Of a stretch of 64,000 nucleotides of DNA, positions 1 to 64,000 are shown one piece after another (position 1 is the first letter of the stretch; each line of letters starts with the position of its first letter). The notes below the pieces were generated by a model. It did not search any database, was not told the origin of the DNA, and saw nothing but the letters and a program-made list of their open reading frames with translations. Location: assembly GCF_035083965.1 (NCBI RefSeq), contig NC_089730.1, positions 18,104,242 to 18,168,241 of the forward strand, written 5' to 3'. The DNA comes from Branchiostoma lanceolatum. Lineage: Eukaryota > Chordata > Leptocardii > Amphioxiformes > Branchiostomatidae. Both the position numbers and the translations under genes were made by a program.

Positions 1-147
1 GCCAGACCAGTGATTCCACGATCTTGGGTACTTTCTGTGGATCCACACTTCCCCAGACCATGAGCACGGTTGGAAATACTATGACGGTTCGGTTCCGCAC
101 TGACGGCAGTGTTCAACGGACAGGGTTCAAGGCCAAGTACAGCATTA
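1..147 (+). CDS. CUB domain, 3' half exon (partial)
   Basis: Open from the window start in the frame beginning at base 3; contains FCGSTLP, then a stretch ending GFKAKYSI, the typical second half of a CUB domain (FCG, then x-V-x-F-x-[ST]D, then GFxAxY). A GTAAGT donor follows at 148 and the phase is 1, matching the EGF exon downstream. The first half of this domain and the signal peptide must lie to the left of the window. Confidence 0.7.
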
Positions 148-8980: not shown

Positions 8981-9063
8981 AGACTGAAGCAGTTTCCAAT
9001 ATCTACCAACTCCCAAGAGTCGGCAAGGGTTGTTTTGGTTCTGTTTGCTGTATAGTGTTTCTG

Positions 9064-11239: not shown

Positions 11240-11442
11240 CCTGTTGAATAGACATAGACATGATTGTCTGGCTGCCTCTCATGCGTATGTATGCATAACC
11301 GCGCAGTCATTTTTATCCCGATAGTTTTCTATTGTGGATGGCGTAGACTTGTGCCATGATTCGGGCTATAGTTAACAGAACTCCGGCCATATTTCGACCT
11401 GAGTTTTGAGAGTTCCAACCGCTGAGGAGAGGTCTACCAATT

Positions 11443-14400
11443 ATGTGGACTTCCGTGGCGGACAGGAAACCTGGGTCTTCGAGAATCAAGGTAAGACGCT
11501 TTTTCCTCTTAGCCAGACATCTTGCCACACCCTTTTTCTTGGATAGAAAAAAAAGACCAATTTGATTGTATCTAAGAACCCATTGTAAGTGACCTGTAAT
11601 AATGTATAAATCCTGCTATAGTGGCACATTGCAATATTACAAATACTTTAGCTGGAGGAATTTGAATGTAAACCAGGTGTATTTTGTGATATTTCAGATT
11701 GCTGTTGGACAGTGGCTGGCCATCTTGTGCCTGTGCCTGGCAGTGGCTCCTTCTTGCGCTGGTAGGAGCCCGATTGGTGATAGTGGCGGCTTCAGCTTAG
11801 AACTGGGCCTGACGCTCAGAGGGGGGTACTATGCAAACAACACCTATATCGGTGAGTACTGTGAATTACTAGATCCAAGCAGAGGTTCTGCTACGGATGG
11901 TTTTTGACATGTTTTTAGGCGTTTTTGTCAGGCTTCATACTTTGTCCCCTTTTCTTTATTTTGTTTAACTTGGTGACATAAAGAAAATGGGAAAAATAAA
12001 GCCTGAAACATTTACAATCCTTTTAATGAAATTTAAGGAAATTTTCCTAACTTAATATCTATGACCATGAGTAAAAAATCATATTATTTTTAATTTGTGT
12101 TTGAATCATTCTATTCTAGATAACCACATCCCAACCTATGTTTACATCTAGAATCACCAATAGACAAGAAGAAGCTATGTTTCTTTGCTATACAATGTAC
12201 ATGTATTAGTAGTTTTTTAAGCCCATGTTTATTGTGACAGTCATTTCATTGTATCAAAAGTCCTGTCACATATCACTAATTTGTACTTGTATGTCTCTAT
12301 GTTAGTCTGATAGAAAATGAATGTCCGATGATGTTTACTACGATTGTTATAATCAAAATTATTGTTTAAATGCAGTGAACATCACCCATGATGGGACCCC
12401 CCTATCTGATAAGAGGACTCTGCAGTACCTAGACTATGGCGACAGGTACACCCAGCAGCTGGGGGCCAACTTCGACAAGATCGGTCTGGAAGCTCGCGGC
12501 GCCAGCTACACTGACCCTAGGCCTGTTGGCACGTTTTTGGAGCTGCCCTATAGCTCCATGAGGACGTGCAGAGATCTGATCATGAGCAGGACAGGGGTGA
12601 GTAACAGGATTCCGAGTTGATGGGGACAGACCTATGTACGGAAACCCCTATGTTCCAACATCCCTATGTTCATCCAACACCCTTAAATGTCCGGACACTC
12701 CTATGTTCCGACATCCCTATGTTCATCCAACACCCTTAAATGTTCAGACACCCCTATATGTTCCGACATCCCTATGTTCATCCAACACCCTTAAATGTTC
12801 AGACACTCCTATGTTCCAACATCCCTATGTTCATCCAACAACCCTATGTTCATCCAACACAGTTAAATGTTCAGACACTCCTATGTTCCGACATCCCTTT
12901 GCTCATCCAACAACCCTATGTTCCACCAACACCCTTAAATGTCCGGACACATCCCTAAATCAGTTCTATGTTCTAACACCCCTATGTCCCGACTCCCCTA
13001 CCTGACATATGGGTGTCAAGACATATAGGTGTGTCCTAACATGTCAGGATGTCAGATCATATTGGTTGTTGGAACATAGGGGTGTTCATACATACATGTA
13101 GGGGTACATGAACACAGGGGTGTCCGAACATAGGGGTGTCCAAAAATAGGGGATGCGGATGCTATGTACAATATTTACCTGTTCATTTCAATTCACCTAG
13201 AGTCCTAGGACATTCGACAAATGAAATGAACAGTGGACCTCGGCTAATAAATGTCCCGTCCTAAGGCTTGAACCCTTTCCATGGAGTAGTGTGCATGTTG
13301 GATGAGTGACAACTGTCTGTATTCAAACTCCCAGACATGTTCCGGAGGCAGGGTTGCTGTCCTCTGGACTAGACATGCTATTTTGTACTGTACATTGAAT
13401 GTGGCCTCACCTCTGCCTACATAACAGGGCTCGAAATTCATTTTTGGAAATAGGTGCACTAGTGCACCCAACCAAAAGATTCGGTGCACAGAAAGGTATT
13501 TGGGTGCACCACATCTGTATCTGTATCTGTATCTATATAGCCGGTATAACCGCCATCAGGCGTAACACACCAGCTTCGCAGGCACGCGGCGCGGCAGCAG
13601 CTGGTCATATTACACCGAACGGTCTGTTACACCTAGTCTTTGCATATCTGACTGCAACCGTTCTTTAAAGCTACATAAAGTAAAATTGAATGTCAAAACA
13701 TAATTACAAAGTTTAATAAGTTAACGCTCTTCTAACTATGATCAAGAACTTCAATCTGTAATTCTATGGCTGAATTCCAAATTTCAAACAAGTAATACAT
13801 TGTACATCAAATAAAGTGCAACAAAGGGTTATATTGCTTTTTCTGATACTTACATTTCAAGAATATTATGTACACTTAAGTGTACAATTATAGTACCTAT
13901 AGCCTACAACAATATCTAGGTTCACTGGTGCACCCACAGTCAAAAATTAGGTGCACAGCTCCAATTATTTGATGCACACAGGTGCACATGCACACAGTAT
14001 TTCGAGCTCTGCATAACATTATTTATTTATGTACGTCTTTGTTTCTGCATGGTTCTTATAGGCACAGATTCTGGATGGAAGAGGCTGCTTCAACATCCAC
14101 TTTCCCCTGACCGTCACATGGAAGGCTCCAAAGCAGGATGTTGGGAAAATCAGCTTCATGTAAGTTTTTCTCAATACATTTACCTCCCATAAATACGATT
14201 ATTCCTACAGCGGTCATTTATGAATTATAATTCAGTAAATTCATCCAGGCTAACGTTTGTATGTCTGCAAGGTTGGTATTCGAGTAAACTAGAATTGAAT
14301 CAAATTGAATACCTGGACAGTGTCTATTGTATTGTAGTTACTCTAATTTACTATTAAAATCATTCACAATTCTTATATGTTTTGAGAAATAAAACGAACA

Positions 14401-17286
14401 AATAAGCAACTTATGAGACTAATATAATCATTAACTGCCACAATGAATTGTCAAAGACTGTCCAACACAAATAATAGTCTGATCAAAAGCACTGCCTGGA
14501 TTATTGCTACTGTTATATTGTTCCTATACTTCCATGAAGCTTATGTTTGAAAAAAGTAATGTGTACCCAAAATGTTTCTTTTTTCATAAAATCTGAAAGT
14601 ATGTGTCTCTAGTACATGTAGGCAGCTCTGCTGTTTTCTAGGAAATACACATCTGCACTGAATCTATTCAGTGCATTTGTTTCTTGTTGCAATGTTTTCC
14701 TGTCTTTGCTCTCTCCTTTTTCACGACACAGTACAGATTGTCTGGCTTCTAAGTACGAAACTTAATATTCATGATGGAAGCAATGACTCCAGCAGGCATA
14801 TAATGACTCATGCCTTTGTCTATTGTCAGTCTAGAACTGTCTTGTATTTCAAGAATTGGACCAGTCCGTTACAAAATACATTTTTGTAAAATTTAGAGCA
14901 AGTGAAAATCATAAATTAATGCCTTAGTTGGAGATTAAGTTTTAATTTGACATGTATGAAGTTTTGTGAATTTGGCTGTAGTTTATTGCATGGTGACATG
15001 TAAAGCCGCATGAATCTTACCTGTCACACATACTGTAAATCTAATGCAGAAATATTCGCGGATCTCTATTTTGCGGGAGAAAATTAAGTGTTCGCTGTGG
15101 TTTTGACTTCTGTTTGAAACAATAGTAGCGCTGGTGTCACACAATGAAATGGCTTTTCGCATTGGTTTTAAGTTTGTGGTATCAAAAGAGTTCACCGCGA
15201 AAAACCGTGAACCAAACCACTGCGATCATTTCTGCTGCATTTACAGTACATGTTTTAGACCATAGCCTCCCGACCTGCTCCAGACCATGGTTAGGAGCTA
15301 GTTGTGATCAAGGTCGTCTCTGGTTGTAAAATGCATGTAGTCAACGAGGTTACCTACTAGTCTTTTAAGATTTCTGGGATTGCCGACTATGATTTTGACA
15401 AATCAAACTCAAGAAAGACAAAATTCTTCTTCTTTGATATGATAAGAGGAGCAAACTGGAGCTAGAATAGGTTGGATTCCAGGCCAGGAGACTGAGCCGG
15501 GTTGGGGAGTGGCCAGGAGTAAAGTTGTGGGAAGGTCCTGTATGTGTGACAGGGGCTGAAGGCAACAGAATGCATACTATCTGTTTTATTATGCTATTTT
15601 GGTTAAGATTTTTGAAGGTATACGGAAAAGTGCACCATGGAATAAAAGTCAAGTCCTAAGGCCACACTAATTCAATTTCTTGGTCAACGGAATTTGAAAA
15701 AGAATGCTAGATTGGAAAATCAACATGAAAACAGAATCTCAGAGGAAAGTCTGGACCAAGGTGTACACAGTTTCAGGGAGTGAACAGAGTCAGGTGCAGG
15801 TTTTCACCCCAGCCTTCTGTTTTCATGACGTCCTCGTGCTAAAATTTTACCAAAAAAACAAGAAATTAAATTGGTGTGGCCTAAGATACAAAAGAAAACA
15901 GACATGTTTCGAGCCACATTCGTCACAAAATCTTGCCATGAATAATCACGTAACCATAGTGATGACCCAGCACAATTGATTGTCTGGGCTCCCAGATGGT
16001 GACGGTGTTGTTTTATGTAATGATGATTGCAGGTTTTGTCTGTAGGTTTCAATTTTTTATACATTGTCTCTTATTATGCCATTGTTGAAAAATCAACACT
16101 AAGTTTTACATAATGGTTAGGGATGGTATATACCATAATTTTTGCATACAACTTCATTATGCACATCCGTCTCAGACTGTCTATATTTTTTGTTTTCTGC
16201 GATTCTCTGAATAAACGTCAGTACTAATCGTTCTACTTGGCTATCCAGATTCCCAACTAAAAATCAAATAGTATCGTTAGTGAACAATTAGAATGTCTAA
16301 GACTTGTACACCTGGTTATCTGAAGTCTTTTGCAATACATTATAACCTAAGGATTACTGATGCTGAACTTGTCCCTAGTAGATCTCTTTTAATTCCTTAT
16401 TTACCTGTTTAAAACATTTACCATATGATAAGTGTCTGGAATCAAAGGTTAATGTTTAAATATTTTTGTAGCTAGACAGGCAGCTTACCCTTTTCTTTGA
16501 TTGATTTTGATTGCACTGTGGTGTTCTTTCTCAATATAGACATGGCTTCTGCTTCCTACCAGTTTATATTACTTCTAGGGAGGGAAGTATTGTTTTGTGC
16601 CTGTCTGTCTCTGTCTCTGTGTGTTTCTGTGATTCTCATATCTCAACATTAACAAATGAAATGCATTCGTTTTTCTCTTCTGAACAGGAGGGGTCATACA
16701 GTGTAAATCAGTATGGGTAAGGGGGGAAGTCTGCCAATTCTGATTGCCTTATAATTTTGATTACAATTTGCCCAGCAACAGAACTGTGTGATATGTATTT
16801 CAAGCTGATCTACCTACCTGCGTGTTCTGTTCTTTTTATTAGGGCAACAATCGAAAATCAGATGGATCGCTATCAAGTGATGTCTCCAACTGTGCCTGCA
16901 CTATCCCTACCGGTAAGAAACAATGCCATTTTTTCTTTGTCTTTTTCTCCTTTTGCTCCTCCTCACAAGAAGTGAAAATTCATCCATGTGGTTTCTAGAT
17001 TTTCAGGCACCACGATAACCAAGAATTTGTGGAGTTCTTTGTCAAACAAAAGCAGTAAAAGAAAGATTGAATGAAAACTGGAAATGCCTGTACCTGTTGG
17101 TAGGTGTTGTGAGTTCGCTGTAAAGTGACTACAGATATCCCCACTCGCTGTAGAAACCAACCATGCCTTATGACATTGTGTGCGCCACAGGGCTGGTAAT
17201 TAAAGCCATGGCAGTATATATTTAACAAAACTTTTGTGGCTGATTTTTTCAGGAGAAGAATGAAATCCCCCCTGAGTTGATGAACG
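11443..17286 (+). CDS. Receptor PTP module 1: signal peptide and Reeler-like region
   Basis: Exons 11443-11490, 11698-11851, 12376-12596, 14062-14159, 16843-16912, 17253-17286. Exon 1 ([16 protein letters not shown]) is hydrophilic; exon 2 starts [22 protein letters not shown], a good secretion signal with cleavage probably after SCA. The following about 130 residues contain [35 protein letters not shown] and GKISFMATIE. The pattern VGTF ... C ... H ... VTWxAP ... G-x-[IV]-x-F-x-AT fits the Reeler (reelin N-terminal) family; this assignment is by eye and should be treated as probable, not proven. The ATG at 11443 is chosen because its exon ends in a GTAAGA donor in phase 0 with exon 2. Confidence 0.7.
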
Positions 17287-20200
17287 GTATGTATATGATG
17301 GAATCTTATTCTTCATCTAACCATCAAGTTAAAGGCTATAAAGACATTTAGTGTACAGTTATGATGGGATGTTTTGAACTAACAAAATCATGCCTTAACT
17401 CATTTATCATTTTGTTAGTGATGATGCAGTATGTTATTTGTACAACATGATCTAGTTTGTAATTTGACTAATTTTTAAGTTGTGTACAATAACTGTCTTA
17501 GCTTTCAATGTTCTTTGTTTTATTCTCTTATGAAATTCTATTTATCATGCAACATCTTGTAGTTAACAACTTAAAGGTAGTGTGGTATAGTTAGCAATAT
17601 CTAACAGATAACCTATCACTAACCCAGGAACTGACCACACTGTAACTGTTTTTCTCCACAAACAGACCATGCCTACTTTGTTGTAGTGCCTGTGAACCAG
17701 TCTGTTGCACTGGGTAAGTAACAAAGTATTAATATGATCATAGTTTTACTGTTGTCTGCTCACTGCATTCAAAATTTGAAATACACTCATGCTAACAGTC
17801 ATGCCATCTCCAGTTCAGTAGTACATGTACATGTACTTGTATGGTTTTCACTTCTGTTATACTTTTTACCTCTGTGCAAACGGAATACGGTATTGTTGTC
17901 AGTTTGTCTGTTACTTTGTTTGTCTTGGTTTGGTTTGTTCGCAATAGCCTGGGTCCAAGGTTGGCCCATGTTCTGGAAAATGTTCTGAAGCTAAACAGTA
18001 CATGATGTATACATATAGCAAGTTTTAAAGTACTGTTCTTGTGCTATCTTCTGTGAACTACAAACACTTGATAGAGGTTATTGGAAAGGGTCAGATTATC
18101 TCCAGATATCCGAAAATGCCTCTGTCTGCTATGTTTCACTGAAATGCAAACAAAAAAGTCATATACGTCTGCCTCCATGCATGTTTTTGTGCATATGACA
18201 TCACAGTAAAATGCTCCATACTATACTCTGTAGTTCCATTTCACAACGTATGGTGCTTAGAACTGATTGTTATTTTCAATATTTTTTCCAGGTGAACCAG
18301 CCACCTTCCACTGTGAGGCTGTGGCTAAGACTGACATCATCATCACCTGGGCCTTCCATGGCGACAAGGACATCCCCCTGCCCTACAACTCCAGACACAG
18401 GCTGGACATTCACACCAGGGTACGGCAGCAGGACTTAATAGTCTTAGATTTGTCACACAAAATGATGAATAATGTCATCCTGAATCAAATTTGAGGTGGC
18501 ATAGTTATAATTTGTTGCTTCTTGGATTAGAGAAAGCAACATTTGGTCAGACCCTTGAAGTGCCTAGTGGCACATGGGAAAGGTTGTTTCCTTGCTGTTT
18601 CAGTTGCACGGTACTACAGGTTGGGGTTGCTTGTCCTTCTCCTTTAACATGCCTTCCTTTAACACGGGACCCCCCTTTTGCATTCCTTCCGAAAGAGTGC
18701 AGCCCCAACCCAGATTTCCGTACCCTGGTTTGAACAGAGGTCTCTTAGTCAGCATCTTATTGGAACCAAGATCTGAACTTTTAGGCTGCTACCAGTTGAG
18801 CTATAGAAACATCCCTAAAGACCACATGATATTATATGTTATATAATGCTGTATACATGTAGATAAACGTGGACACAGAGTCAAGTAGAAAGTTATATAT
18901 GAAGTTATTTTATTGTCAGGTTCAAGTGCAATACAGATTGGGAAGGTCCTTCAGTACTAAGGCCAGGGATGGTACAGGATACTACAGGGTGGGGGATGGT
19001 CCTTTAGTACTAAGGCTGGGGATGGTACAGGATAGTACATGGTGTGGATGGTCTTTCAGTACTAAGGGCAGGGATGGTACAGGATAGTACAGGGTGGGGA
19101 CGGTCTTTCAGTATTAAGGGCAGGGATTGTACAGGATAGCAGGGGGTGGGGATAGTCTTTCAGTACTAAGGCTGGGGATGGTGCAGGGTAGTACAGGGTG
19201 GGGATGGTCCTTCAGCACGAAGGTCAGGGATTGTACAGGATAGCAGGGGGTGGGGATAGTCTTTCAGTACTAAGGCTGGGGATGGTGCAGGGTAGTACAG
19301 GGTGGGGATGGTCCTTCAGCACGAAGGTCAGGGATGGTACAGGATAGTAGAGGGTGGGAATGGTCTTTCAGTACTAAGGCTGGGGATGGTTCAGGATAGT
19401 ACAGGGTGTGGATGGTCTTTCAGTACTAAGGGCAGGGATGGTACAGGATAGTACAGGGTGGGGATGGTCCTTCAGTACTAAGGGCAGGGATGGTACAGGA
19501 TAGTGGAGGGTGGGGATGGTCTTTCAGTACTAAGGCTGGGGATGGTTCAGGATAGTACAGGGTGGGGACGGTCTTTCAGTACTAAGGGCAGGGATTGTAC
19601 AGGATAGCAGGGGGTGGGGATAGTCTTTCAGTACTAAGGCTGGGGATGGTGCAGGGTAGTACAGGGTGGGGATGGTCCTTCAGCACGAAGGTCAGGGATT
19701 GTACAGGATAGCAGGGGGTGGGGATAGTCTTTCAGTACTAAGGCTGGGGATGGTGCAGGGTAGTACAGGGTGGGGATGGTCCTTCAGCACGAAGGTCAGG
19801 GATGGTACAGGATAGTAGAGGGTGGGGATTGTCTTTCAGTACTAAGGCTGAGGCATGATGGGGGAAGGCAGGGGCGGGAACCAGATAGTACAGGGTGGGG
19901 AAAGGACCTTCAGTACTAAGGATGGGGAGGGTACAGGATAGTACATGGTGGGGCATAGTCCTTCAGCACTAAGTATGGGGATGATGGGGATGGTCTTTCA
20001 GTACTAAGGCTGAGGACAGTACAGAAAAATACAGTGTGGGGATAGTCCTTCAGCACAAAAGCAGGGGAGGATGAAGAATAGTACAAGGAGGGGGAAGGTC
20101 CTTCAGCACCAAGGCTTGGCATTGTACATGATATTTCTGGTTGGGGGATGGTCCTTTAGCAGGCTGGGGATGGATCGGGATAGTACAGGATAGCACAGTG

Positions 20201-23200
20201 CATGGTAATATATACCTTCCAGCATCTTTAGACACATTACAAACTTCTAATGGTTGTTTGTTGAAACCTGGCTTGTTGACAGGACCTGACCATCCTGTCT
20301 GTAGAGGAGAGCGACCTCGGCAGGTACACTTGTCAGGTCAACACCAACAACTGGAAGCACCAGCAACATGCCTGGCTCTCCAAATATGGTAGGATATGGA
20401 GCATTTTCAGTCTTCTGATAGAGATAAAGCAAGCAGGTGCTGACCACCATGTTGATGTCCTTAGTTTGCATTTCAATGGACAGTAATGGTACACGCTTTC
20501 CAAAATTTTATCTGCTATTTTTTTTCCATTCTTCTGGACATCCTTTTTTGTGAGCTATACGTACTACATACCGCCTTTCTAGCCAACCACCTCTAATCAT
20601 AAGCAATTTAATTCTGAAAGCAATCTAATTCTCTATAGTAAAGGCACTCCATACTCTCTGGAGCAAACACCCTCAGGTCGCAAACCATTATTCCACAGAC
20701 ACTTGACTGTTTGTTAAAGCAAAGTTTAACTAATATCATTTTTTCACACAGTGAAGCCCAAAATCACCCACCATGTTGAGACCCTGAAAGTCAAGAAAGG
20801 AGAGAGGATGGTGTTGGAATGCCAGGCTACAGGAGTACCCCCACCAATCTACACCTGGCAGGTGGGAAACAAGGATGTCCGACAGCTAGGCTCCAGGTAC
20901 AAGGTGCGCCCGGACGGAGCTCTGGAGGTGAGGGCTATTCAGGTGGAGGATGCTGGGAGATACACGTGCGCGGCGCAAAACCTTCTGGGTGACGACAAGG
21001 CAGTTACTGATCTGGAAGTCTTGGGTGAGTTTGAAAGTATCCTTTTTTAACCTTTATTTAACCTTGAAAGTATACAACGATACACTCATTCGGCATATAA
21101 AGATAAGTCGACGATATAACATCATTTCCATATTAGGTAATCATAGTCAATCCATCATGTTACTCGTCGCAATATATTTTTAAATGTTGCAACTGAAGGC
21201 GATTGGTGGCTTAAGCTATTGGCCTAGCTTTAGGTAGTGGTTGCCACTTGGAAATTTGATGGTTTTCAGAGGGATACCCACTAGCCCCAGTATTTCAACA
21301 TAAAAATTGTGTTACATGAGTGGTACATGTTCACAGATACTTCAGTCTGTTCTTCTAGTTGAACTATCTGACTGTAGTGACCAGTCACTTTGAAATCCAT
21401 GACTACAAAAACATGATGAGTTACATTTGGTGTCAAATTGACAGCTGGTGTGTTATGCATACAGCTACAGATTAAGCTTTGCTGTCAGACTTTCCCATCA
21501 TGTTGAATAAATAATGTCACCTTAGACTTCTTCAAGCTTCAACTGTATTCTTCTTTTCATCCAACCAACTTCCAAAGATCCTCCCGAGATCTACGACCAG
21601 ATCCCCCCAACCCTGACGGTGCTGGAAGGCAGGGAGGTGTATCTGGAGTGCTTGGCCAGTGGGAACCCTCCCCCGGAATATGCATGGTTTGCCCCCAACA
21701 CCAGGTAATGACATTGCAGGAATCTTTTTATGTGTTGTGTCAATATATGTTAATGTAGAGGTTGCAATCTAGCAGAATTTTTAACTTTTTGTATAGTTTC
21801 TGTTGACACTCAATCTATTCAAAGTGCTCTGGTTCACTGTGCAAGTTTTGACCAATGTTCACAGGTTATCAAATTGAATGTAACTGCAGACTTTAAGGCT
21901 AGGAATATGCTCAGTTTTCTAGCAATTAAGAAATTTGGTGCTTCTGGCAATTCAAGGACTTGGCAGAAGTTCACTGACAGTATGACACAGTTGTAGTAGC
22001 TTTCCTGAATATGTCAGTCTTTCTAAATATTTTACCTCACAATACCGAATGAATCAATAGATTCCCCAAAACTAGAAATTTTTCACTGAGGTATGAGATC
22101 TTTAATGTTTTGTTTTCAGTGCGGTGATAAGAAACAATGGAGAACTGTCCATCGGTGCAGTGCAGCCGTCCGATGCTGGGGAATACATGTGTGAGGCAGT
22201 CAACAGTGAGGGGACGGATGAAACCATTGTGCTGCTGGTGGTACAAGGTAAATATTATTCCGAAATTTTTGAAAACTTAAAAGCTTTAGATTTACTCTAT
22301 GCTAGATCTGTTGAGAAAAATTGGTGTCATCACAATATGTTTTTTTTTTTTTTTAAATTAAGAAGTGGCAGGGCAAGAACAGGATTTTGATATTATAATT
22401 TTATTATAATTTTTATTCATTGAAAGCATTGCCACACCAACATGATGCATATATATGGGTATCAATCCCTGTGTCTGGGTGAATATTTCAATTTGCGAAT
22501 CCTTGAATGAATGGGAACCAGGCAGAGAAAGCTTCCATGATGCGGGTAGGATTTAAACCCTTCTGGAGTGCATTTGACAAACACTCCACCTGCTGAACAA
22601 TTGCAGCAGTAAAGAAAGTAATTTGTGTTAAACTGTTCTGTTTGTTTTTTGTTTCTTTATAAATTTCAGAGGCTCCAGAGTTTGCAAACAAGGTTCCACC
22701 CAACGTGTCTCTAGCGGTGAACGAATCTCTCCATGTCCTGTGCAATGCCACTGGAAACCCCAAACCAACTGTGACATGGCTGTTCAAGTCTGAGGAGGTA
22801 CGATTCTCTCAAGTTTAAACTTTCAAATACTATTGATGCAAACTGAAACAAGTACTTTGAAAGAAGCTGGCATTTTGGGCAAAGTGTGTTAAGGAAATTG
22901 AGACTGAGTGATTTGTGATTTGTGATTTAATGAAATTGCAAACGATACAATACACGTGGGCCACAGGCAGCTGTTGCTGGTGTCGTGGCCCACACACAAG
23001 ACAGTACAAAGCACATAGACTACAAATACAATCTAAAAAGCAGCGTTTTGGTGTAAAATAATGAAGATGAAGCAGTGACAATGCAATCTAAGATCATGGC
23101 TCAGTGTTTATTGGATATTCCTGTCAAGGATAATTTTTCTTGCACTTTTGACAGGAATAATTTTGTTAGGAACCAATAAGAGAATATCTTATGGCCTTTG

Positions 23201-35200: not shown

Positions 35201-38200
35201 GCAATTTTTACAACATATCTATTTATAACCTTATCTCTATTGGTTGATGAAAGTTACACATCCAGGTAGTAAGATACGCCAAAATAATTACTCAAGCAAC
35301 TGGATAAAATCTTGAAACAGTGAGACATTTCAGAGAGCATCCACTGTCTTTCGTCAGTGACTAACGATGGGACTGAGAACACCAGGTTTTGTACCAAAAC
35401 TCTGAATAGATATGTTAACGAGGTTAAGACAATTTAGGATGTTTTGTCTCTATTGCCTTACCCCATGACCAATACAACTTTGGTTCCAGATGGCTACCTT
35501 AGTGGACTGAAGATAATGCTTCATGTTGACATACACCCCTTCTACAGGATACTGCTGCCCAAAGATGTCTCGGATGCTCTCGGCTCCTACCACTGTGATG
35601 TGTCCAACAGCTATGGAACATCCAAGTCACGCACTGCCGTGGTTCGGACTCAAGGTTTGTTTTACTTTAATTACTGTATACTTCTGAAACACCGTATATG
35701 AATTGAATTTTCTGAAAAAAGCTTTTATTTCAATGTCATTGATGAATGGGAAAAATGCATGTACACATGTACATGTAGCAGCTAGAGAGACAAAGTCTAT
35801 CTCAAACTGATACCTGTAGTAAAATATTGAGTACTTTGGAGTTGATTCATATCCTATAATGATAAATAAATTATAGTACATTGTGATCATCATCTAGATC
35901 TGCTGGTCAGAACAGTACACAAGTTTGATACACTGTTTTTTGATTATCAGTTCAGCACATACACTTCACACCTGACTTTGTGATATATCATACCTATAAC
36001 ATTTTATTTATTTATCTTTTTCTTGAATACAGGGTATGGTAACATTCAACGTGAGCAGCTAAGTGTAAGTAAAAACCAAAGAAGACAATTTTAAGCCGAC
36101 TCCTTCTCCACATAACCTCCTTGTAAAAACCTTTTAAAGTCCTCAGGCAAGAAATACATCTATTTAGATGATGACTGTTTAACATACATCTGCATATTAG
36201 GCATATACAATGTCACTAAGTATAAATCAGACTCTGAAGCAGCATTTACTCACTGACAGGCAGAGGAATATGTACATTGTAGGGCTGCCATGCACACTGC
36301 TTCTTTCACTGCAGCAGCTGCTGTTTTGTCTGTGGGACTGGCAGTAAGTCAGTATGGGTAAGGGGGTGAAGTCAGCGATTTCTCATTGCATTGTTCAATC
36401 ATAATGCATGTAATAATTTTTCTTCTGTTGCAGACATTGCGATAACCTTGTTTTAATGATTTTTGTAGTTTGAAGCTGATGTGAAGATGACACATTTGGC
36501 AAACGAGAATCAGGGAAAGTTCTACCCCAGCCTGAGAGATCAGGTAATGACCAAATTAGATAAAAAACTGATGTTCTCTCTATGTTCAGATTGATTTTCG
36601 ATATGTAATGTTAATGAATTATCTATTGGTCAACAATTGTACATGGTACAATTGTATGGGAACGTTAAGTCAAAAGCAATAATACTGACAGAGGCTGATT
36701 TATTGATGAAAAGTATACATGTATAGTGAGCAAAGTCCCCCTGTATGGGGAAACCAGTTTGTGTTGTTCAAAATCGTCTATTGCGGTCCAACATCATTAT
36801 GTTTATCATCATTGTCAATGTGTGTCAGCTAATTTGTTTTTTCTGCCATGCATGTCTTTTAAATTTGTATTGTCTTTTTATCTGAAACAAACAAATGAAT
36901 TAATGAATCGAAAAACCTCTCCATCCCCCAACGTTAGCTGGCAAGCCTGCTGAAGATATCCACCAACAGGGTCGAGTACCTGCGGGTCTACAGGGGTATG
37001 CTGACCTTTGACCTGGTCCCGAGGGACGGCAAGAGCCAATCCGAGCCATCCTATTTGATGCTTTCATACGACCTGGAGCAGAGAAAGGTTGGGACAAGTT
37101 CAGACATTCACAAACTAGACATACAGCATTGATTGTGTCTGTTTTGAACAAAATACAACTATTGAGCTTTTTTGAATGCACTTAAACCTTTTAGATTAAG
37201 AATGCAAACTTTTTTGTTCCATTTGGGCACAATTATTTTTTCTGTGTTACTGTAAGTTTTGATATTTTGCTTGATGGAAAAGCATACTTTGTATCATTCA
37301 ATAATTATTCAAAGTATGTGGAAATATATAGAAACAGCAACTAGATGTGATTATATCTATCTAGTAGCTAAGGTTGATGTGCCAAATACCTTGTACTGTT
37401 TATTTATTAATTAGCAAATCATTAACCTAATATAGTGTCTGTTGCTTTTGATGTTGTAATTATCCTTATAGTTTTTTTTTGCAAGCATGATAATAGTCCA
37501 ACATGTAGAAGAAATCATAAAAGATATTTTTTATTCCTCTGTTTAATCGCACAGAGGGGTGAGCAGCTTATTGTGAAGTTTGGGGGAGACAAGTATGGCC
37601 TGACCTACATCCCACCTCCAGAGCCAACCCCACCCAAGCCAGGTCAGTCACAGATTCATTCTCATTGGGATCATCAAAATGGTGGTACTAACCAGCCAGT
37701 GGTAGTATAGGTCGTCCACAAATTGATATTTGGTAGTATAGGTTATCCACAAATTCCTCTGCTATATTAATTTTGTAGTTCTAGTGTCCTTCAGAGAGGT
37801 TTGTGTGATAAATCAACATATTGAGTTTAATGCAGGGTTTACACTACTGGTACTAAGGTCTAAACATTCTTTGATTTTTAAATAATATAATGAGGTTTGG
37901 AAGACCGGACAGAGTGGTGCAGAAGAACCCATTGTCTCCCGAGATGACATCACTAATGTCCTCGTTCAAGGTTCAAGGTTCAATGAGGTTTCTCTTCTCC
38001 TAGAATGGCATTGAATGTTTTTGGTCTGCCTTTTTTATTGTCAGTGGAAACCAGGACAGTGATCGTGGAGAAGAGAGTGCCGTATCGGGTGACAGTCCGT
38101 GTCCCGTGGAGGCCGACTACCACCCCACAGGCCTCCACGCAGGACGCAGGGCTGGATCAGAAAGTTGTGGTAGGTATCTGCATACATCTATGCATGGGCA

Positions 38201-41200
38201 CACACATACATACGCACAAACTCACGCACACCCACGCACACGTGGCCTCCACTCAGGACGCAGGGCTGGACCAGAATGTAGTGGTAGGTATCTACACACA
38301 TATATGCATGGGCACACACACACATGCACAAACTCAGGCACACACACACACACAAATGGCCTCCAGTCAGGACGCAGGGCTGGATCAGAAGGTTGTGGTA
38401 GGTATTTAGTAAACAAACTTATCAGACATTTTATCTATCTTTGAATAAACGTTCCCTGCACTCACTCCTGGCCTTTACGTAGGACTCAGAGCTGGTCAGG
38501 AGCATTATTTTACATCTTTCAGCAGAATTTGTTGATTGCCAGAAAGTTGCTGAATTGACCAGAGAGTCAACCATATTTTTCAATACCTACTCAAACACTT
38601 TAGACGAGGCTCAGTGACCATTGCGAATATTGGTTGATCCTTAAAAATCATGCAGTAATCGAGATGACACTAGATGTATTGCTGCTGAAAAGGTCCTAGA
38701 GAGCTTGCAGACTTGTTGGGCAAGCTATTTTCCTGTTGAGTGATGCTCTCTCAAATAAATGTAATATCCATTGATTTGCCATTGATGGAACTTCTAAATG
38801 ATTTAATGGATGTGTCAGCCCCAGGATGACGACATAGATGTGGGAGTGCTGGTGGGGACTGTCGTTGGTACCATTGTGTTCCTCAGCTGCATCTTCATAT
38901 CCATCACTGTCTGGTGAGTAGAACACACCATCATCATTAAACAAATTATTAACAAAACTGTATATTTATTAATTTTCATGGCGCCTGAATTTCGCAGTGG
39001 ATGGGGAAGGAAATGATTTAGTAGTGTGGTAACCATCACATTGGAATCGCATATTTATGGATTTGCAAAGGAGAGGTCACTATAAAAACCGCAAAACAGC
39101 CTCAGACTATACATGCGTCAATCTACTGGGCAGGTATCTGAAAGGTCGTACTGTGTGCAATAAGTTTCCCTAGAATATGTTGAAGTTTCCAATAGACTAA
39201 GTACACAATGGACATAATTAAGTCTACCTGTATATATTGAAGCCTCTATTTTGTGTCTGACTCAATAACTCCTATTAGTAGGTGATTGTACTATGTACAT
39301 GTACATGTAGGTTCCCTACAATGTATCAAAGTCTTCTAACATGTGTTAATGTACCTGTATCCTAGGAGATCGTACTTTGCGGACAAGAAGACCCCCAAGA
39401 CCCCCCACCAGCAGTTCTCGTTCCTGCAGCATGGGTTCGGTGTGGAGGGGTGGGGGAACAGGGGGGACCGCTTCGAGCTGGAGTATCACCCCCCTCCCAA
39501 CATGATCAAGTGAGACAACGTCATACAGTTATCATATTAAACCAGTTGTAAACACTATTACATTGTAAACTTCTTTTCTCTTGGGTAGAGATTGTGATCT
39601 GGTAGTATCACTGATTCTGCCATTAGAGATCTTGACCGTCTCTGTTGACAGAGACTTTGACCATGCAGGTGCTAGGATATAAATCATGATGATATAGACT
39701 GTTATAACACTAGTCTACAGACCCTATCTTTCTGGGGGTCACTTCTTCTTTGGAGATAGTGGCTAATGAATAGTCCCATGTTTTTAATGACTAGGTTTTA
39801 TGATTTTGGTGAAAATATTAGTTTTTGATACTTACATCTACCATTGAAAAAATTGCCAGACTTTGCTTTTCCCTTTTGTATACACTGATCCTTTAATCAT
39901 TGCTTGCTTTGAGAATACACACACACAGACCTTACAGTTTTGTGTTGTTCCTGTCGTTAGGTCGAAACCAATGGGGTACCTGACCTTGAAGAGAATGGTG
40001 GAGGACATTAAGAACGCAGATGACGGAGCGCTGGCAGTGCTGAAGCAGGAGTTTGAGGTGGGCGGGGTCATTGCCATGACAACTTCATCTTATCATGATA
40101 AACAATTTGCTTGTTTTGCTTTCTCATACTTGTTTTGAAACTTACTTACTCTTTTGAGCTGTGTACTTAAACACAATTTTATGCACTGGTACATGTACGT
40201 GCCCATACCTGTACCAGTCCTGAACTTCTTGTGTCATCTGTTTTACAGTCTGAGCCATTGTAATTTGTAGCACTCATTGTAAATCACTTGACTGATTTCT
40301 CAGTTTTTTATCAGAGCAGTATCAGAAAATGTTTTGAAAATTCTTGCCTTGCTGCACTTTGTTTCTCAACAGAGTGTTCCTCTGAACCAAGCCAAGATTC
40401 ACCACACACCGTGTGGCACTGAGCAGAAGAACCGCTACATGAATGTCCTGCCGAGTAAGTAAAATATATCCGTCTCAACTTTTCTTATGTTTTAATATCA
40501 TGTGTATTGTCCACTCCCATACATATATGTTAAGTGCACCATCTGTAAACTGTAACCTTATGAAACTCAAAGATACGGAATGTTTGTTGTTGTTTTCCAG
40601 ACCCGCACACCTCTGTGAAGTTGTTGCAGCTGAACTCTGATACCACCACTGAGTACATCAATGCCAACCACATCAGGGTACTGTTAACATACATATGTAT
40701 CTTATAATGTCTTTGATGTGGCACAGTCAAACTTCCATGGACACTAGAATCTGACATGGAATAAAGTGGCATCAGGCCTAGGAAAATTAATGCTGTATTA
40801 CCCATCAAACAATTAGGCCCCCAATAGCTTGGCACTGGTAGATTTTGATTTGTAAGGCGTATCAAAACCATCATCATGGTCATTCTTTCAGCTTATTTTC
40901 AATACATACACAGACTGTGATAATGATTATAATTGTGACAAATGCATTTCCATGTTCTGTCTCAGGGCTATGACCGTCGACAGAATGCCTACATCGCCGC
41001 ACAAGGTACCGTCATATTTCTTAACCAAGATAGAAGAAATTGGAGACTAAAGATTTGACTTCTGTCCTTTTATGTATTGCATCTAATCTCAGTTGTATTT
41101 CCCAGTACCATTGCTTACACTTTGTAGTTTATTGGTTAAGTTTTATAGGGAATATGAAAGCTGAAGGTTACAAATCAGTAATCATATCATATTCACTTGT

Positions 41201-44200
41201 TGTTGTGCGGTATACTTTTGTATTTGAGGCCAGGACAATAAGTATACATTTAGTTAGTTATATGCAAATTGTTCTAGTAGTAAGATGAAATACTAGAATT
41301 TTCAATCAAGAATATTTTCATCTCTGTTTGCTCCCTTTGCTGCATTTAATACCCTTTGCTACACCTAATTGAGGAGGTATTGTCCTTTTTCCTTCCCTTA
41401 CACCCCCTGTCTACAGGTCCCCTTGGTACGACCCGTCAGGACTTCTGGAGGATGGTGTGGGAGCAGAACGTGGACATCATCGTCATGACAACGGGGCTGG
41501 TGGAGAGAGATCGAGTGAGTCAGCATGAAGCTTATCAGCACACACACTATTTCAGGTTTCAATTTGAGGCTGCACGCCCTAAAGTCATGACTTTGTGGTG
41601 ATATTGACATGAGTTGACATTAATATTCTGTGCACTTGTAAGTTCATCTGTGTTGGTAGAAGTCATTCTGAATCAAATTTAACTGCAACTTGCCCACGCA
41701 AAGTTGTGCTCAATCAAATTTTCAACCAATCTGGGTTCTACAACCATCCCTCAACACAGACGAAGGCCGCCATAGACTTTTTGCAACTTATGATCCACTG
41801 CACACCAAGCCATGTGTCCTATGTGCATTAGTTGACGTCACAGATTCGGAAGAAGTGGATTGCTCATTACGTGACAGAGGCTGGAGCTGATAAGCCAAAA
41901 ATCTGGTTAATATTCTGTGTGTTTGTTCCTTCAGGTGAAGTGTGCCCGCTACTGGCCCAACTCGAGCGGCAAGACCAAACACGAGGACTACGGGGACCTG
42001 ATCGTCACGGTGCTGAGCGAGGACAAGAACCAGAAGTACGCCATCACCAGGATGGAGCTGCAACACAAGGTGGGTATACAGCACTGCTGGGGTGGGATGT
42101 CTTGTTCTTTACCCTTGCCAAGAAAGTCATATTTTTGGTTGCGTGTGTCTGTGTGAGTATGAATTGGACAACTCAAGAATGCCTTGGTAGATTGACTTTA
42201 TATTTGGTATGTGGGTAGGTCTTACTGTGACCTCAGTATGATTTGATTTTGGGGTCTTAAGACTTTCCACACCACGTAACAGACCTGCCCCTGGGGCTGA
42301 ACACATTTCACACCATATAACAGACCTGTCCCTGGTGCTGAACACATTTTACACCATGTAACAGACCTGCCCCTGTTGCTGAACACTAACTACACCATGT
42401 ACAGGCCTGTCCCTTGTGCTGAATATTAACCACACCATTTGAAATACCTGTCCTTGGTGCTGAACACTAACCACACCATGGAACAGACCTGTCTCTGGTG
42501 CTGAATATCCTTAACACCATGCAACAATGTAATCATCAGCGTTCTTTTTCTACAGGATGCCTCCGAGGTTCGTCACATCTGGCACTACTGGTACACATCC
42601 TGGCCAGACTTTGGTGAGTCTATTCAACTCAAAATAGGTATTAGAACTACATGTGTCAATCACGATTGTGAATAAAACATGGAAAATAGGAGTCAGGCAT
42701 TGACTCTTCTTAGCCCATATCAGAAATGGTTTGTTCCAACAGTCTAGCTCCTATGTTTATTTTTTTCTGCATTTAAGTTTGCAGGTTTTTATTTCGCGCC
42801 AAGGGGAAAATGGAGTGTTCGTAGTGGTTTTAAGTTTGCGGTGATACGGTCGCTGTGAAAATCGTGAACATAAAACCACTATGAATATTTCTGCATTTAC
42901 AGTGCTATGTAAGAAACTACGTATGGCTGAGAACTAATTGAATTGTGGGTTTTTTCTCCATTTTCCCTCATAAGGCGTTCCTGATGAACCAGACTACATC
43001 CTGGACCTGCTGGAGGACATGAACTGTCACCGCGCCCGCTCCAAACCTGTCATCGTTCACTGCAGGCATGAATCAATTTTTTTCCCTCTCTTTCTTTAAA
43101 AGAATTGTAACAATGATCAACTCTACTGTAACGTCAACTCAGGTTCCCTAAGACACCCTTTTTTTTAATGTCTTGGTCCTAGGGTATCCGGCAGAATTAT
43201 GGGAGTTGACATTACATGCAATTTCTTAGGAAGAGAATACATACCAAAAACACCAAAAAGTAAACTAAATGAACAATCGTACATCTTGTATTTTTAAAGG
43301 CAAGCCAGGTAAAGTCAAGCCAAGTGACTCCAAGGATAGTACTGTTGTTCTTGAGTAGTAACAGCTTGTTTCCTTTCTTGCACAGTGCTGGGCTGGGCAG
43401 AACTGGAGCCTTTATAGGCATTGACATGGGCATGGAGCAGGTACTGTCACATTTTATTGTCTGTATCTTAAAAGTTGTAGTTTTTTCCAGTTTTGCTATA
43501 ATACAAATTTTTATATGAGTTCAAAGCTCATTTTTTTAGATTTTATCTGATTCCATCTGCAACAATCTTTCACTGCAATGCTAAGTAACTGCTTTCTTTT
43601 TGATGATCTTTGTTCTTCCTTTTTTTTTCAAAACAGCTTTTTTTGGCCTTGTTGGTAAGGGTGTCCACTTTCAACAGATGTGGAACTAGCTTAATCCCAT
43701 GAAACTGTCTTCCGTAGATTCAGAATGAGAGCATTGTGGACCCCCTCCTGTACTTCACCAGGATCCGTCAGGACCGCGGGGGCTCTGTCCAGACTCTGGT
43801 AAGCCTTACATTTACATACTTGTATCTCCGTCTTGCTATTGCATTGATTACAACAGCCATGCTGACATGTGACCTATACTATTATTAACTATGCATGATA
43901 GCTAGTTTTAAAAGTTCAGTTTTGAGCTGTTACTTAATCTTCTTAGGTGTTGTACACTGCTATAAAATGCTGAAAGTTGAAGTCATTAACACTAGTGGAA
44001 AAGCTGTTTATAGTGTCACCCTCTGTCTGTAACTGATAAGTAAAAAATATCTCAGATTGTCAACTCGTGTGCTTCTGTACTACTGACTGTTGGACCCGCC
44101 TAGTGCAGTGAGCTTGTGTTATTGTATATGATTTCCTTTTAAATCCAAACCAAAAAAAAACTTTTAAGACTGTATTTTGTACATTCACTCGTAATGTAAA

Positions 44201-44645
44201 AAGTGTTTCCGTCACCACAAGGAGAAGACTGTACGATTTAAGTAAAAAGTATTTCCATCACCATAATCACCATTAGATTTATGTTCAAACCTGTCACCAA
44301 CAGAAGTAGATCTAGATCTTAGTACTTCGCTTAATTACTATCCTAGTATAGGTATTAACTATTGATATCAGTGTATTTATAATCTTCATTCATTACTAGA
44401 TGTGTTTGTAATGAGCCTTGAAGCATGTATTTACAATAACAATTATTATATATATAGAATTATCATTAATTTGTTTTGAATATTTCCCCCTCCAGGCACA
44501 GTACATCTTCATCCACCAGGTGCTGCTGCTGTACTTTGAGCGGAAGCGCAGCGAGCTGGCCATGCAGCCCGACCTGACCCGCCTGTCCATGAGCACCATG
44601 TCCCAGGGCGCCAGCTCGCTTACACAGCTCACAGCCATGCTCTAA
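11443..44645 (+). CDS. Receptor tyrosine phosphatase: Reeler-like, 14 Ig, TM, single PTP
   Basis: Forty-nine coding exons from ATG 11443 to TAA 44643-44645, total 6108 nt, 2035 residues; every junction keeps phase. Order: short N-terminus and hydrophobic signal (residues about 17-36), Reeler-like region (about 68-197), 14 Ig domains (about 209-1478), possible SEA-like region (about 1490-1594), Thr/Pro juxtamembrane (1594-1635), transmembrane helix (about 1643-1667) and one PTP domain (about 1760-2015) with WPDFGVP (D1909) and [10 protein letters not shown] (C1940, R1946). It should sit in the plasma membrane and dephosphorylate phosphotyrosine proteins in response to an extracellular partner. 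No fibronectin III repeats and no second PTP domain are present, unlike LAR-type receptors. Exons are listed in the module entries below. Introns carry several mobile elements and minisatellites. Confidence 0.9.
11872..11950. repeat. Copy of the CCAAGCAGAGG dispersed element
   Basis: Starts CCAAGCAGAGGTTCTGCTACG and continues TGGTTTTTGACATGTTTTTAGG and a TTTGTC-rich end. The same text occurs at 24285-24360 and, complete with inverted ends, at 47453-47574. It lies just after the exon 2 donor of the receptor phosphatase. Confidence 0.55.
12634..13150. repeat. Minisatellite with an inverted second half
   Basis: About seven imperfect units of roughly 50 bp built from CCTATGTTCCGACATCC and TATGTTCATCCAACACCC TTAAATGT up to about 12990, then units such as GAACATAGGGGTGTCC in the opposite orientation to about 13150. 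The two halves could form a long hairpin. It lies in the intron after exon 3 of the receptor phosphatase. Its open frames are repeat-derived and not genes. Confidence 0.7.
13425..14011. mobile_element. hAT-like inverted-repeat element with GTGCACC motifs
   Basis: Begins CAGGGCTCGAAATT and ends ATTTCGAGCTCTG, imperfect inverted ends; flanked by CATAA direct repeats (13420-13424 and 14012-14016). Subterminal GTGCACC/GGTGCAC motifs recur on both sides. CAGGG ends suggest hAT superfamily, although a full 8-bp duplication is not clear. It carries no transposase. A LINE 3' end is inserted at about 13504-13672. Confidence 0.6.
13504..13672 (-). mobile_element. 5'-truncated LINE 3' end with (ATACAG)n tail
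   Basis: On the minus strand it reads a coding tail ending DRSV-stop-like codons, then GACCAGCTGCTGCCGCGCCG, GCCTGCGAAGCTGGTGTG, GCGGTTATACCGGCTATAT and a tail of ATACAG repeats. The same 3' end occurs on the + strand at 57363-57482 with a longer coding part. It is nested inside the hAT-like element. Confidence 0.72.
15030..15255. repeat. Palindromic dispersed element (TGCAGAAATATTCGC family)
   Basis: Ends are near TACTGTAAATCTAATGCAG and CTGCATTTACAGTA in inverse orientation, with GTGGTTTT and CCGCGAAAAACC motifs between. Related stretches occur at about 29560-29840, 42770-42905 and 46175-46380. No coding capacity; probably a non-autonomous DNA element family. Confidence 0.5.
17666..35654 (+). 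CDS. Receptor PTP module 2: 14 immunoglobulin domains
   Basis: Exons: 17666-17713, 18292-18419, 20283-20388 (Ig1); 20752-21024 (Ig2); 21578-21704, 22120-22247 (Ig3); 22670-22797, 23389-23524 (Ig4); 23984-24083, 24738-24907 (Ig5); 25437-25578, 25994-26130 (Ig6); 26652-26833, 27456-27543 (Ig7); 28279-28400, 29213-29363 (Ig8); 29898-30170 (Ig9); 30659-30928 (Ig10); 31722-31997 (Ig11); 32617-32796, 33548-33655 (Ig12); 34006-34293 (Ig13); 34570-34636, 35033-35107, 35548-35654 (Ig14). Each domain has the Cys-x(10-15)-Trp core and a D-x-G-x-Y-x-C C-terminal motif (I-set, hemicentin-like), e.g. [13 protein letters not shown]. All domain borders are phase 1; internal splits are phase 0 or 2. Likely an adhesive or ligand-binding rod. 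Confidence 0.88.
18690..18815 (-). repeat. tRNA-derived SINE-like fragment
   Basis: The minus strand shows TAGCTCAACTGGTAGCAG (A-box like) followed about 35 bp later by CTTGGTTCCAATA (weak B-box like). It lacks a full cloverleaf, so it is not a tRNA gene. Confidence 0.35.
18905..20170. repeat. 52-bp minisatellite, about 23 units
   Basis: Tandem units of 52 bp such as AAGGCTGGGGATGGTGCAGG-GTAGTACAGGGTGGGGATGG-TCCTTCAGCACG, partly arranged as 104-bp pairs of two unit types. The array fills most of the intron between the second and third exons of Ig1 and ends about 110 bp before the acceptor at 20282. Many units contain TCTTTCAGTACTAAGG, which looks like an acceptor next to a branch-point-like TACTAAG. 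Frames within it are not genes. Confidence 0.88.
22495..22612 (-). repeat. tRNA-derived SINE-like fragment
   Basis: On the minus strand GTTCAGCAGGTGGAGTG (A-box like) precedes GGGTTTAAATCCTACCC (B-box like). No intact tRNA structure is seen; it is an intronic SINE remnant. Confidence 0.45.
24190..24440. repeat. Direct duplication plus CCAAGCAGAGG element in an Ig5 intron
   Basis: A stretch with CCATCAGGTCTCCAGTCTAG and GGGCAACTTCTGTTATC recurs about 147 bp later as CCTATCAGGTCTTCAGTCTA and GGGCAACTTCAGTTATC. Between them lies a copy of the CCAAGCAGAGG element with TGGTTTTTGACATG. A local duplication appears to have trapped part of the element. Confidence 0.55.
27950..28245 (-). mobile_element. 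tRNA-derived SINE
   Basis: The minus strand begins GGTGCAATGGCCTAGTGGGT with A box TGGCCTAGTGGGTAGAG (28218-28235) and B box GAGTTCGAACCCC (28178-28190), then a tRNA-unrelated body of about 200 bp. A related, more diverged copy is at 56700-56868. It lies in the intron between the two halves of the Ig7/Ig8 region. A functional tRNA is excluded by the lack of an acceptor stem. Confidence 0.75.
29560..29840. repeat. Copies of the palindromic TGCAGAAAT/CCACTGCGAA family
   Basis: Contains CAATGCAGAAATGTTTGTGG, TTTCACTGCGAACTTAAAAT and, further on, CGCGAACTTAAAACCACTGC, all belonging to the family seen at 15030-15255 and 42770-42905. It ends about 55 bp before the Ig9 exon. Confidence 0.45.
31313..31705. 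mobile_element. pogo/Tigger-like non-autonomous element, 393 bp
   Basis: Left end CAGTAGAAACCGCTTATTTG and right end (reverse complement) CAGCAGAAACCAGTTAATTG match over about 20 bp, each flanked by TA (31311-31312, 31706-31707). CAGTAGAAACC ends and TA duplications fit the pogo/Tigger group of the Tc1/mariner superfamily. It ends only 16 bp before the Ig11 exon at 31722. Confidence 0.72.
33060..33500. repeat. Minisatellite of about 30-bp units in the Ig12 intron
   Basis: Imperfect repeats of TGCTGTCCTTGGTGCTGAA followed by ACATTCACAG-type text, roughly 13 units. They lie between the two Ig12 exons and end about 50 bp before the acceptor. Confidence 0.75.
36033..38913 (+). CDS. Receptor PTP module 3: SEA-like region, juxtamembrane, TM
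   Basis: Exons 36033-36064, 36469-36543, 36938-37087, 37555-37642, 38045-38169, 38819-38913. The segment [10 protein letters not shown] ... [20 protein letters not shown] ... [10 protein letters not shown] resembles the alpha-helix then beta-strand layout of SEA or ferredoxin-like membrane-proximal domains; this is a structural guess. It is followed by a proline stretch ([10 protein letters not shown]) and a Thr/Pro segment. Exon 38819-38913 encodes [10 protein letters not shown] then a hydrophobic run ([20 protein letters not shown]), the single transmembrane helix. The exon ending at 38169 has two further copies of its 3' end and donor downstream (see tandem repeat 38107-38403). Confidence 0.78.
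38107..38403 (+). repeat. Triplicated exon end with 5' splice site, 114-bp period
   Basis: Three copies of GCCTCCA-x-x-CAGGACGCAGGGCTG, then GTG/GTAGGTAT, have donors at 38170, 38284 and 38398, exactly 114 bp apart. Between copies is CA-rich sequence (CACACACAT...). The coding frame stays open through all three copies, stopping only at 38407-38409. Each donor is phase 0, so any of the three can join the transmembrane exon. Confidence 0.85.
39366..44645 (+). CDS. Receptor PTP module 4: cytoplasmic tyrosine phosphatase domain
   Basis: Exons 39366-39509, 39961-40057, 40373-40454, 40601-40677, 40966-41005, 41417-41514, 41935-42069, 42556-42613, 42975-43065, 43386-43440, 43718-43798, 44496-44645. 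Signature motifs are all present: [71 protein letters not shown] (general acid D1909), [12 protein letters not shown] (nucleophile C1940, R1946) and [11 protein letters not shown] (Q-loop). The domain should be catalytically active. There is one domain only; no D2 domain follows. The intron after 43065 begins with GC instead of GT. The last codons (LTQLTAML) belong to the first unit of a 3' minisatellite. Confidence 0.92.
42255..42535. repeat. Minisatellite of about 37-bp units in a PTP intron
   Basis: About seven units of CACACCATGTAACAGACCTG followed by TCCCTGGTGCTGAACA. It lies just before the exon that carries the WPD loop (starts 42556). Confidence 0.75.
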
Positions 44646-45480
44646 CTCACACAGCCCACAGCCATGCTCTGACTCACACAGCCCACAGCCATGCTCTGAC
44701 TCACCAGGGGACCAGGACTCACACAGCTTACAGCCATGCTCTAACTCACACAGCCCACAGCCATGCTCTAACTCACACAGCCCACAGCCATGCTCAGACT
44801 CACACAGCCCACAGCCATGCTCTGACTCACCAGGGGACCAGGACTCACACAGCCCACAGCCATGCTCTAACTCACACAGCCCACAGCCATGCTCTAACTC
44901 ACACAGCCCACAGCCATGCTCTAACTCACACAGCCCACAGCCATGCTCAGACTCACACAGCCCACAGCCATGCTCTAACTCACACAGCCCACAGCCATGC
45001 TCTGACTCACACCACCAGGACTCACACAGCTCACAGCCATGCTCTGACTCACACCGCCAGGGCACCAGGACACCAGCTTGCTCACACAGCTCACAGCCAT
45101 GCTCTGATTTACACAGCTCACACCACCATGTCCCAGGTCGCTGACTCACTCACACAGCTCACAGCCATGCTCTGACTCACAGCATACAGGCTCACACAGG
45201 CCACAGCTATGCTCTGACTCAAAGCACAAGGACTCACACAGCTCACATCACATCTTCTGACTCACAGCCAGACCTGCCCCACAAGGGCACCAACTAACTC
45301 TCACAGCTCATGGTCATGGTCTGACTCGTAGCACCAGGTTACCAGCTTGCTCACACAGCTTACAGCTATGCTCTAACTCACAGCATACAGGCTCACACAG
45401 GCCACAGCCATGCTCTGACTCAAAGCACAAGGACTCATACAGCCCACAGCCATGCTCAGACTCACGGCATACAGGCTAGA
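44595..45480 (+). repeat. 27-bp minisatellite starting inside the last exon
   Basis: Unit CACACAGCCCACAGCCATGC then TCTAACT; 27 bp, so the frame is kept from unit to unit. The first unit encodes LTQLTAML and the TAA stop of the receptor phosphatase; later units carry TAA or TGA at the same place. Some units are joined by CACCAGGGGACCAGGACT. The array becomes irregular after about 45150. Its opposite strand has a 227-codon open frame of pure repeat. Confidence 0.88.
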
Positions 45481-60880: not shown

Positions 60881-61010
60881 GGGCCGTCCTCTTGAGCATG
60901 CGCACAACAAGCTTTGCCAAGCTGCAGCAGGTTTCACCATGGCGTCCACTCTCCAAGGTCACGGCTGGTGAACAGCTACTGGTTTTCAAGGACAACGGGT
61001 AAACTGCGTT
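60870..61010 (+). promoter_or_regulatory. Possible promoter / 5' non-coding exon of MS4A-like gene 2
   Basis: E-box CACGTG at 60872, then CATGCGCACAACAAGC and CAGCAGGTTTCACC, resembling the block at about 53135-53215 upstream of gene 1. The stretch ends ACAACGG/GTAAAC, a possible donor; a short upstream frame (MASTLQGHGW) is present. Assignment as a first exon is inferred from paralogue similarity. Confidence 0.35.
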
Positions 61011-62033: not shown

Positions 62034-62047
62034 ACATTTAGTCGGAC

Positions 62048-63853: not shown

Positions 63854-64000
63854 GTAATGAACCAGAAAGCCAACATATGATCCAAGCCATTGTAAAGTAT
63901 TTTCTTTTCGTGTTTAGCGGAACGTTCTGTCAAAGTAAAGACATCAAATCTTTTAACTGTTTGTCATAGTGCTAACATTTTGTAAAATTGTCTTTAACTA

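Follow-up and report, generated by a model that had tools for sequence, protein, structure and literature searches.

A predicted lancelet receptor phosphatase with a Reeler-tipped rod of 14 Ig domains and a PTP domain that groups with R7

The stretch of lancelet DNA analysed here (64,000 bases, hereafter the window) carries on its forward strand a predicted gene of 49 exons, the product of which is quite probably a single-pass receptor-type protein tyrosine phosphatase (PTP) with one PTP domain that groups with the R7 enzymes and a Reeler-tipped rod of 14 immunoglobulin (Ig) domains that positions the phosphatase. The gene model, its domains, the catalytic motifs and the position of the PTP domain in the tree were all computed, and the parts of the gene are as follows.

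11443..44645, forward strand: whole gene model, 49 exons and 2031 aa; ends matched by the gene finder at three of four settings
11443..11851, forward strand: exons 1-2, with the start ATG, a signal peptide (predicted) and the beginning of the head
12376..16912, forward strand: exons 3-5, Reeler domain (residues 95-184 of 2031; Pfam PF02014)
17253..17286, forward strand: exon 6, a short linker (gene model)
17666..35654, forward strand: exons 7-31, 14 I-set Ig domains (residues 209-1478; Pfam and motif spacing)
36033..38169, forward strand: exons 32-36, membrane-proximal region without cysteine (residues 1479-1635)
38825..38913, forward strand: exon 37, transmembrane helix by hydropathy (residues ~1639-1666, the last ones in exon 38)
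39366..39509, forward strand: exon 38, cytoplasmic juxtamembrane stretch without an RRGSN-type KIM core
39961..44645, forward strand: exons 39-49, single PTP domain, short tail and stop (Pfam and motifs)

The combination of a Reeler domain, a 14-Ig rod and a PTP domain is not known from human receptor phosphatases. A search of the open-licence literature (titles and abstract starts) gave no Reeler-Ig-PTP protein among the matches listed, and in the excerpts of PMC6208332 and PMC5117596 drawn on here Reeler and Ig or PTP occur in separate proteins.

A preliminary description of this DNA had proposed one long in-frame gene of 49 exons, and our independent rebuilding returned the same exon count and the same ends (11443-44645, forward strand). 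The exons again sum in frame, although the coding sequence is 6096 nt including the stop, 12 nt shorter than the 6108 nt given originally. The sole stop is at the end, and an in-frame stop lies at 11407, upstream of the start ATG at 11443. All 48 introns end in AG and 47 begin with GT, the exception beginning with GC (43066, after exon 46); their lengths are 146-2683 nt, with a median of 452. Splice scores are weak at the donors of exons 16 (-0.3) and 46 (1.1) and at the acceptor of exon 11 (0.4). The gene finder combined log-odds for codons, based on human codon usage, with consensus splice matrices and phase-aware chaining, and the remaining exon edges were placed by hand, guided by frame and domain pattern; single exon edges may therefore be wrong. 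Run on 11001-49600 without protein evidence, it returned one gene, with ends at 11443 and 44645 at three settings and an extension to 49563 at the fourth, and matched 38, 39, 39 and 31 of the 49 exons exactly at the four settings. On 11001-45500 it scored 389.7 on the forward strand; the reverse strand scored 75.9, and five first-order Markov copies 4.5-11.4. We infer a transcript from this model, and consider a gene with this unusual domain combination credible.

The predicted protein begins with a hydrophobic stretch taken by hydropathy as a signal peptide (residues 15-35). A Reeler-like start had been suggested for it, and the profile search bears this out: Pfam Reeler (PF02014) matches at 25.2 bits, above its curated cut-off of 21 (E 2.5e-5; 37-129 of the 131 profile positions), and matches a shorter trimmed piece at E 1.7e-5. 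Against PDB sequences the same region gave only one chance-level match, to an unrelated protein (E 0.069).

Behind the Reeler domain, Pfam I-set matches 14 stretches (E 3.6e-202). Of 17 matches to the C..W pattern, three begin at a second cysteine; the 14 others, which begin at a first cysteine, are accompanied by 14 Y.C motifs. Fibronectin III (FN3) is absent from the matches listed for the four protein pieces searched in Pfam (for the Ig piece, the best 25 families, E to ~0.1), and the count of 14 Ig repeats without FN3 is thereby retained. Cut at exon edges, the Ig domains measure 83-96 aa and share a median pairwise identity of 25.6% (maximum 39.8%), from which the array looks old rather than recently duplicated. 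The 25 N-glycosylation sequons reach up to residue 1310, and the rod is probably glycosylated. The ectodomain has ~1600 residues; an Ig domain is ~4 nm long, giving an estimated ~50-60 nm for the 14-Ig rod. All 15 of the Ig-domain boundaries are phase-1 introns, in agreement with the Ig-module exon shuffling described for lancelets in the part of PMC4284660 used here, which states that 1-1 phased exons account for nearly all of the Ig-domain expansion in lancelets and vertebrates. The intron splitting the first Ig domain contains a 52-bp minisatellite of 17.5 copies (18940-19848).

For the stretch between the rod and the membrane (residues 1479-1635), neither Pfam nor the PDB sequences gave a credible match. 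Residues 1490-1594 had been put forward as a SEA domain, a proposal that we do not uphold, the profile search giving no SEA match in Pfam and none in PDB. Neither SEA nor an IA-2-like membrane-proximal family is among the Pfam matches for the region, which consist of a single bacterial family of no relevance (BtrH_N, falling far short of its cut-off at E 0.058); two trimmed pieces have no Pfam match up to E 10, and the region has none in PDB sequences up to E 10. By eye, the succession of probable strands and helices is reminiscent of SEA, as is a YRGMLTFD stretch, which we offer as a guess. The R8 receptor IA-2, the ectodomain of which is SEA-related, has a single PTP domain and a membrane-proximal region roughly as long, and its signature carries D in place of A. 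The window protein differs from it in an ectodomain without sequence similarity to that of IA-2, alignments to which match those of shuffles (1490 of 2000 score as high locally and 425 of 1000 end-to-end). No furin site (R.[KR]R) was found. A 114-bp tandem repeat of 2.4 copies (38130-38405, forward strand) duplicates the end of exon 36 together with its splice donor; read-through of the repeat stays open, so that a longer stalk could arise by use of alternative donors.

Apart from the signal peptide, hydropathy gives a single transmembrane stretch (~1639-1666), in line with the one helix first described. Beyond it there is one Y_phosphatase match (E 4.8e-76), and every motif sought is present, again as first described. 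The catalytic motifs of classical PTPs are KNRY, WPD, HCSAGxGRTG and QTxxQ, and all are intact (KNRY at 1764, EYINAN at 1790, WPD at 1905, the 10-residue signature motif at 1937 and QT..Q at 1980); their presence makes an active phosphatase likely. The protein has a signal peptide, a single transmembrane helix and a cytoplasmic PTP domain, as classical receptor-type PTPs do, in a topology predicted from hydropathy, domain order and Pfam. Tandem repeats of 27/126 bp (44622-45477) begin shortly before the predicted stop codon (44643-44645), and the C-terminus may therefore differ between alleles.

The kinship of the PTP domain was examined in maximum-likelihood trees of 15 or 17 rows, which besides the window's row are apparently all vertebrate. 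In the 15-row tree the window domain joins R7 (PTPRR, PTPN5/STEP and PTPN7/HePTP) at 97/95, as sister to all three vertebrate R7 enzymes, and in the 17-row tree, with two additional unchecked rows, it does so at 98/96. The grouping is recovered in all five tree variants (97/95; 95/95; 100/99 without PTPN6; 44/50 for the N half; 93/92 for the C half) and in 7/7 trees altogether, the values ranging from 95/95 to 100/99 where the full-length domain was used (five trees). AU tests, with alternatives chosen after the first tree had been seen, reject placing the window domain with R2A (LAR) D1 (0.0035), R2B (0.0026), R5 (0.0067), R4 D1 (0.0143) or R3 (0.0147, R3 being represented by the single row PTPRJ), and do not reject placing it with PTPN6 (SHP-1; p-AU 0.0507). 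The comparison with LAR-type receptors made in the preliminary description thus gives way to one with R7.

Plain similarity is less discriminating, the identity of the PTP domain to PTPRR (43.8%) being barely higher than that to PTPRS D1 (42.7%). Among the best 60 of 256 PDB matches the tandem PTPRS and LAR chains stand on top by whole-chain score, because two domains are summed; per domain, the same matches give PTPRR 211 bits, PTPRT 200, PTPN5 197, PTPRS D1 193-198 and LAR D1 186, so that PTPRR is the top single-domain chain. Columns found only in R7 were also considered as added proof of kinship: the window domain shares 6/26, PTPN6 6/32, PTPRG 3/29 and PTPRE 1/27, and 8 of the 11 controls share none. 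We set these columns aside as weak because PTPN6 does equally well.

Along with the single PTP domain, the window protein and the R7 enzymes have LPNP, INAN.IRGY and DRGG stretches in common. The core of the kinase interaction motif (KIM) of R7 enzymes is of the RRGSN type, and no such core was found in residues 1665-1745, between the transmembrane helix and the PTP domain; the window protein also differs from R7 in its WPD loop, which is the ordinary WPDxGVP and not WPDxKTP/QTP. A candidate MAP-kinase docking motif was rejected, since its loose pattern matches twice here and at least once in 1302 of 2000 shuffles. The single PTP domain had been regarded as an oddity, whereas it is expected, R7 proteins having one according to section 8 of PMC10815196; the same section describes a short ectodomain for the receptor form of PTPRR, compared with ~1600 residues in the window protein. 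What is truly odd is that an R7-like enzyme without a detected KIM core should carry a long rod of Ig domains.

Other receptors resemble the window protein in part. The R2A receptors (LAR, PTPRS and PTPRD) share the catalytic PTP domain, but two PTP domains were matched in the LAR and PTPRS PDB chains and the window protein stops at 44645 after one. R2A ectodomains consist of N-terminal Ig domains and FN3 repeats, unlike that of the window protein, which has no FN3 among the matches listed. Hemicentin-type rods resemble it in a long I-set run; hemicentin is a secreted matrix protein with VWA and EGF domains, whereas the window protein has a transmembrane helix and a PTP domain. R3 receptors (CD148, VE-PTP and PTPRQ) likewise combine a single PTP domain with a long rod of repeats, but their rod is of FN3 repeats in the part of PMC5336234 cited here, which also reports that no R3 orthologue was found in amphioxus; the window protein has an Ig rod, and the R3 placing is the one rejected above.

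Could the model have fused two genes, such as one for a secreted Reeler-Ig protein with one for a receptor phosphatase? Architecture differences between the predicted proteins of two lancelets have been traced to prediction errors, false fusions included (PMC4967905, in the portion cited), and 10 of the 49 exons of our model differ from the best run of the gene finder. We nevertheless consider such a fusion very unlikely, as the frame is open on one strand across all 48 introns, and where the modules meet the introns measure just 379 nt (upstream of the Ig array), 378 and 404 nt (downstream of it) and 655 nt (upstream of the transmembrane exon), leaving little room for a gene end and a new start.

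A single gene leaves the lineage of the PTP domain to be weighed, and that this domain belongs to an orphan or SHP-related lineage, the R7 grouping arising from sparse sampling and long branches, has a low though appreciable probability. The few and apparently otherwise vertebrate rows of the trees speak for it, as do the unrejected PTPN6 placing, the equal number of R7-only columns in PTPN6 and the 44/50 of the N half alone; the recovery of R7 in every tree, the high values of the full-length ones and the rank of PTPRR among single-domain PDB chains speak against it. Within R7, the sister position to all three vertebrate enzymes would also suit a direct counterpart of PTPRR, STEP and HePTP in its lineage that acts on MAP kinases likewise, but the KIM core was not found where it was sought and the two docking-site-like matches are uninformative, and we regard such a counterpart as improbable.

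For the receptor that we favour, with its Reeler-tipped Ig rod and R7-grouping PTP domain, the domain order suggests a ligand or matrix partner, or exclusion by size. The Reeler domain would sit on the tip of the long extracellular rod, and the rod most likely either binds a cell-surface or matrix ligand or, by its length, is excluded from narrow cell contacts; it would thereby decide where the phosphatase reaches phosphotyrosine on neighbouring proteins. Positioning by ectodomain size has been described for CD45 and CD148 (PMC10815196, section 5.2), and we infer by length the same for this rod. Domain composition is the basis on which the 21 receptor phosphatases of humans are divided into subgroups R1-R8 (PMC10815196, introduction), and the window protein is best filed among receptor phosphatases as a variant with an R7-like catalytic domain. 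More tentatively, and with rather less than an even chance, it may stand for a separate receptor class, in which an active PTP derived from R7 lost MAP-kinase docking while phase-1 exon shuffling supplied its Reeler-14-Ig rod, and which is conserved among cephalochordates or beyond them but was lost in vertebrates. If an R7-like enzyme does carry so long a rod of Ig domains, a catalytic subfamily can be re-paired with another type of ectodomain, and the protein would serve as a natural test of whether the length of the ectodomain is sufficient on its own to position a phosphatase. The gene also bears on the dispute, as it appears in the parts of PMC4284660 and PMC4967905 cited, about the reality of the odd domain combinations seen in gene models of lancelets.

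The window has a GC content of 39-44% in 4 kb steps and a CpG observed/expected ratio of 0.57, a composition that together with its intron-rich genes would suit a lancelet, and scans of its 64 kb with Rfam and for tRNAs (the latter at a bacterial setting) gave no match. Upstream of the phosphatase gene lies an EGF-repeat gene (81-6281, forward strand), perhaps cut by the window edge, in which many very similar 117-nt exons of calcium-binding-EGF type are followed by a Thr/Ser-rich stretch and part of which is a 211-bp tandem unit with 95% matches (1851-2409). It is followed by one long exon (9018-10174, forward strand) the product of which matches Guanylate_cyc_2 (PF09778, E 4.4e-64) and is presumably GUCD1-like. 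Far downstream, an open frame at 57002-57382 (forward strand) resembles the end of a retrotransposon protein by eye, with no Pfam match at E 0.001, and 57935-63969 (forward strand) holds two possible multi-helix membrane proteins, one of which was scanned and matches CD20-like at E 4e-4, below the curated cut-off. Closer to the phosphatase gene, 49675-50885 (forward strand) encodes a BTB and C2H2 zinc-finger protein (BTB E 1.4e-17).
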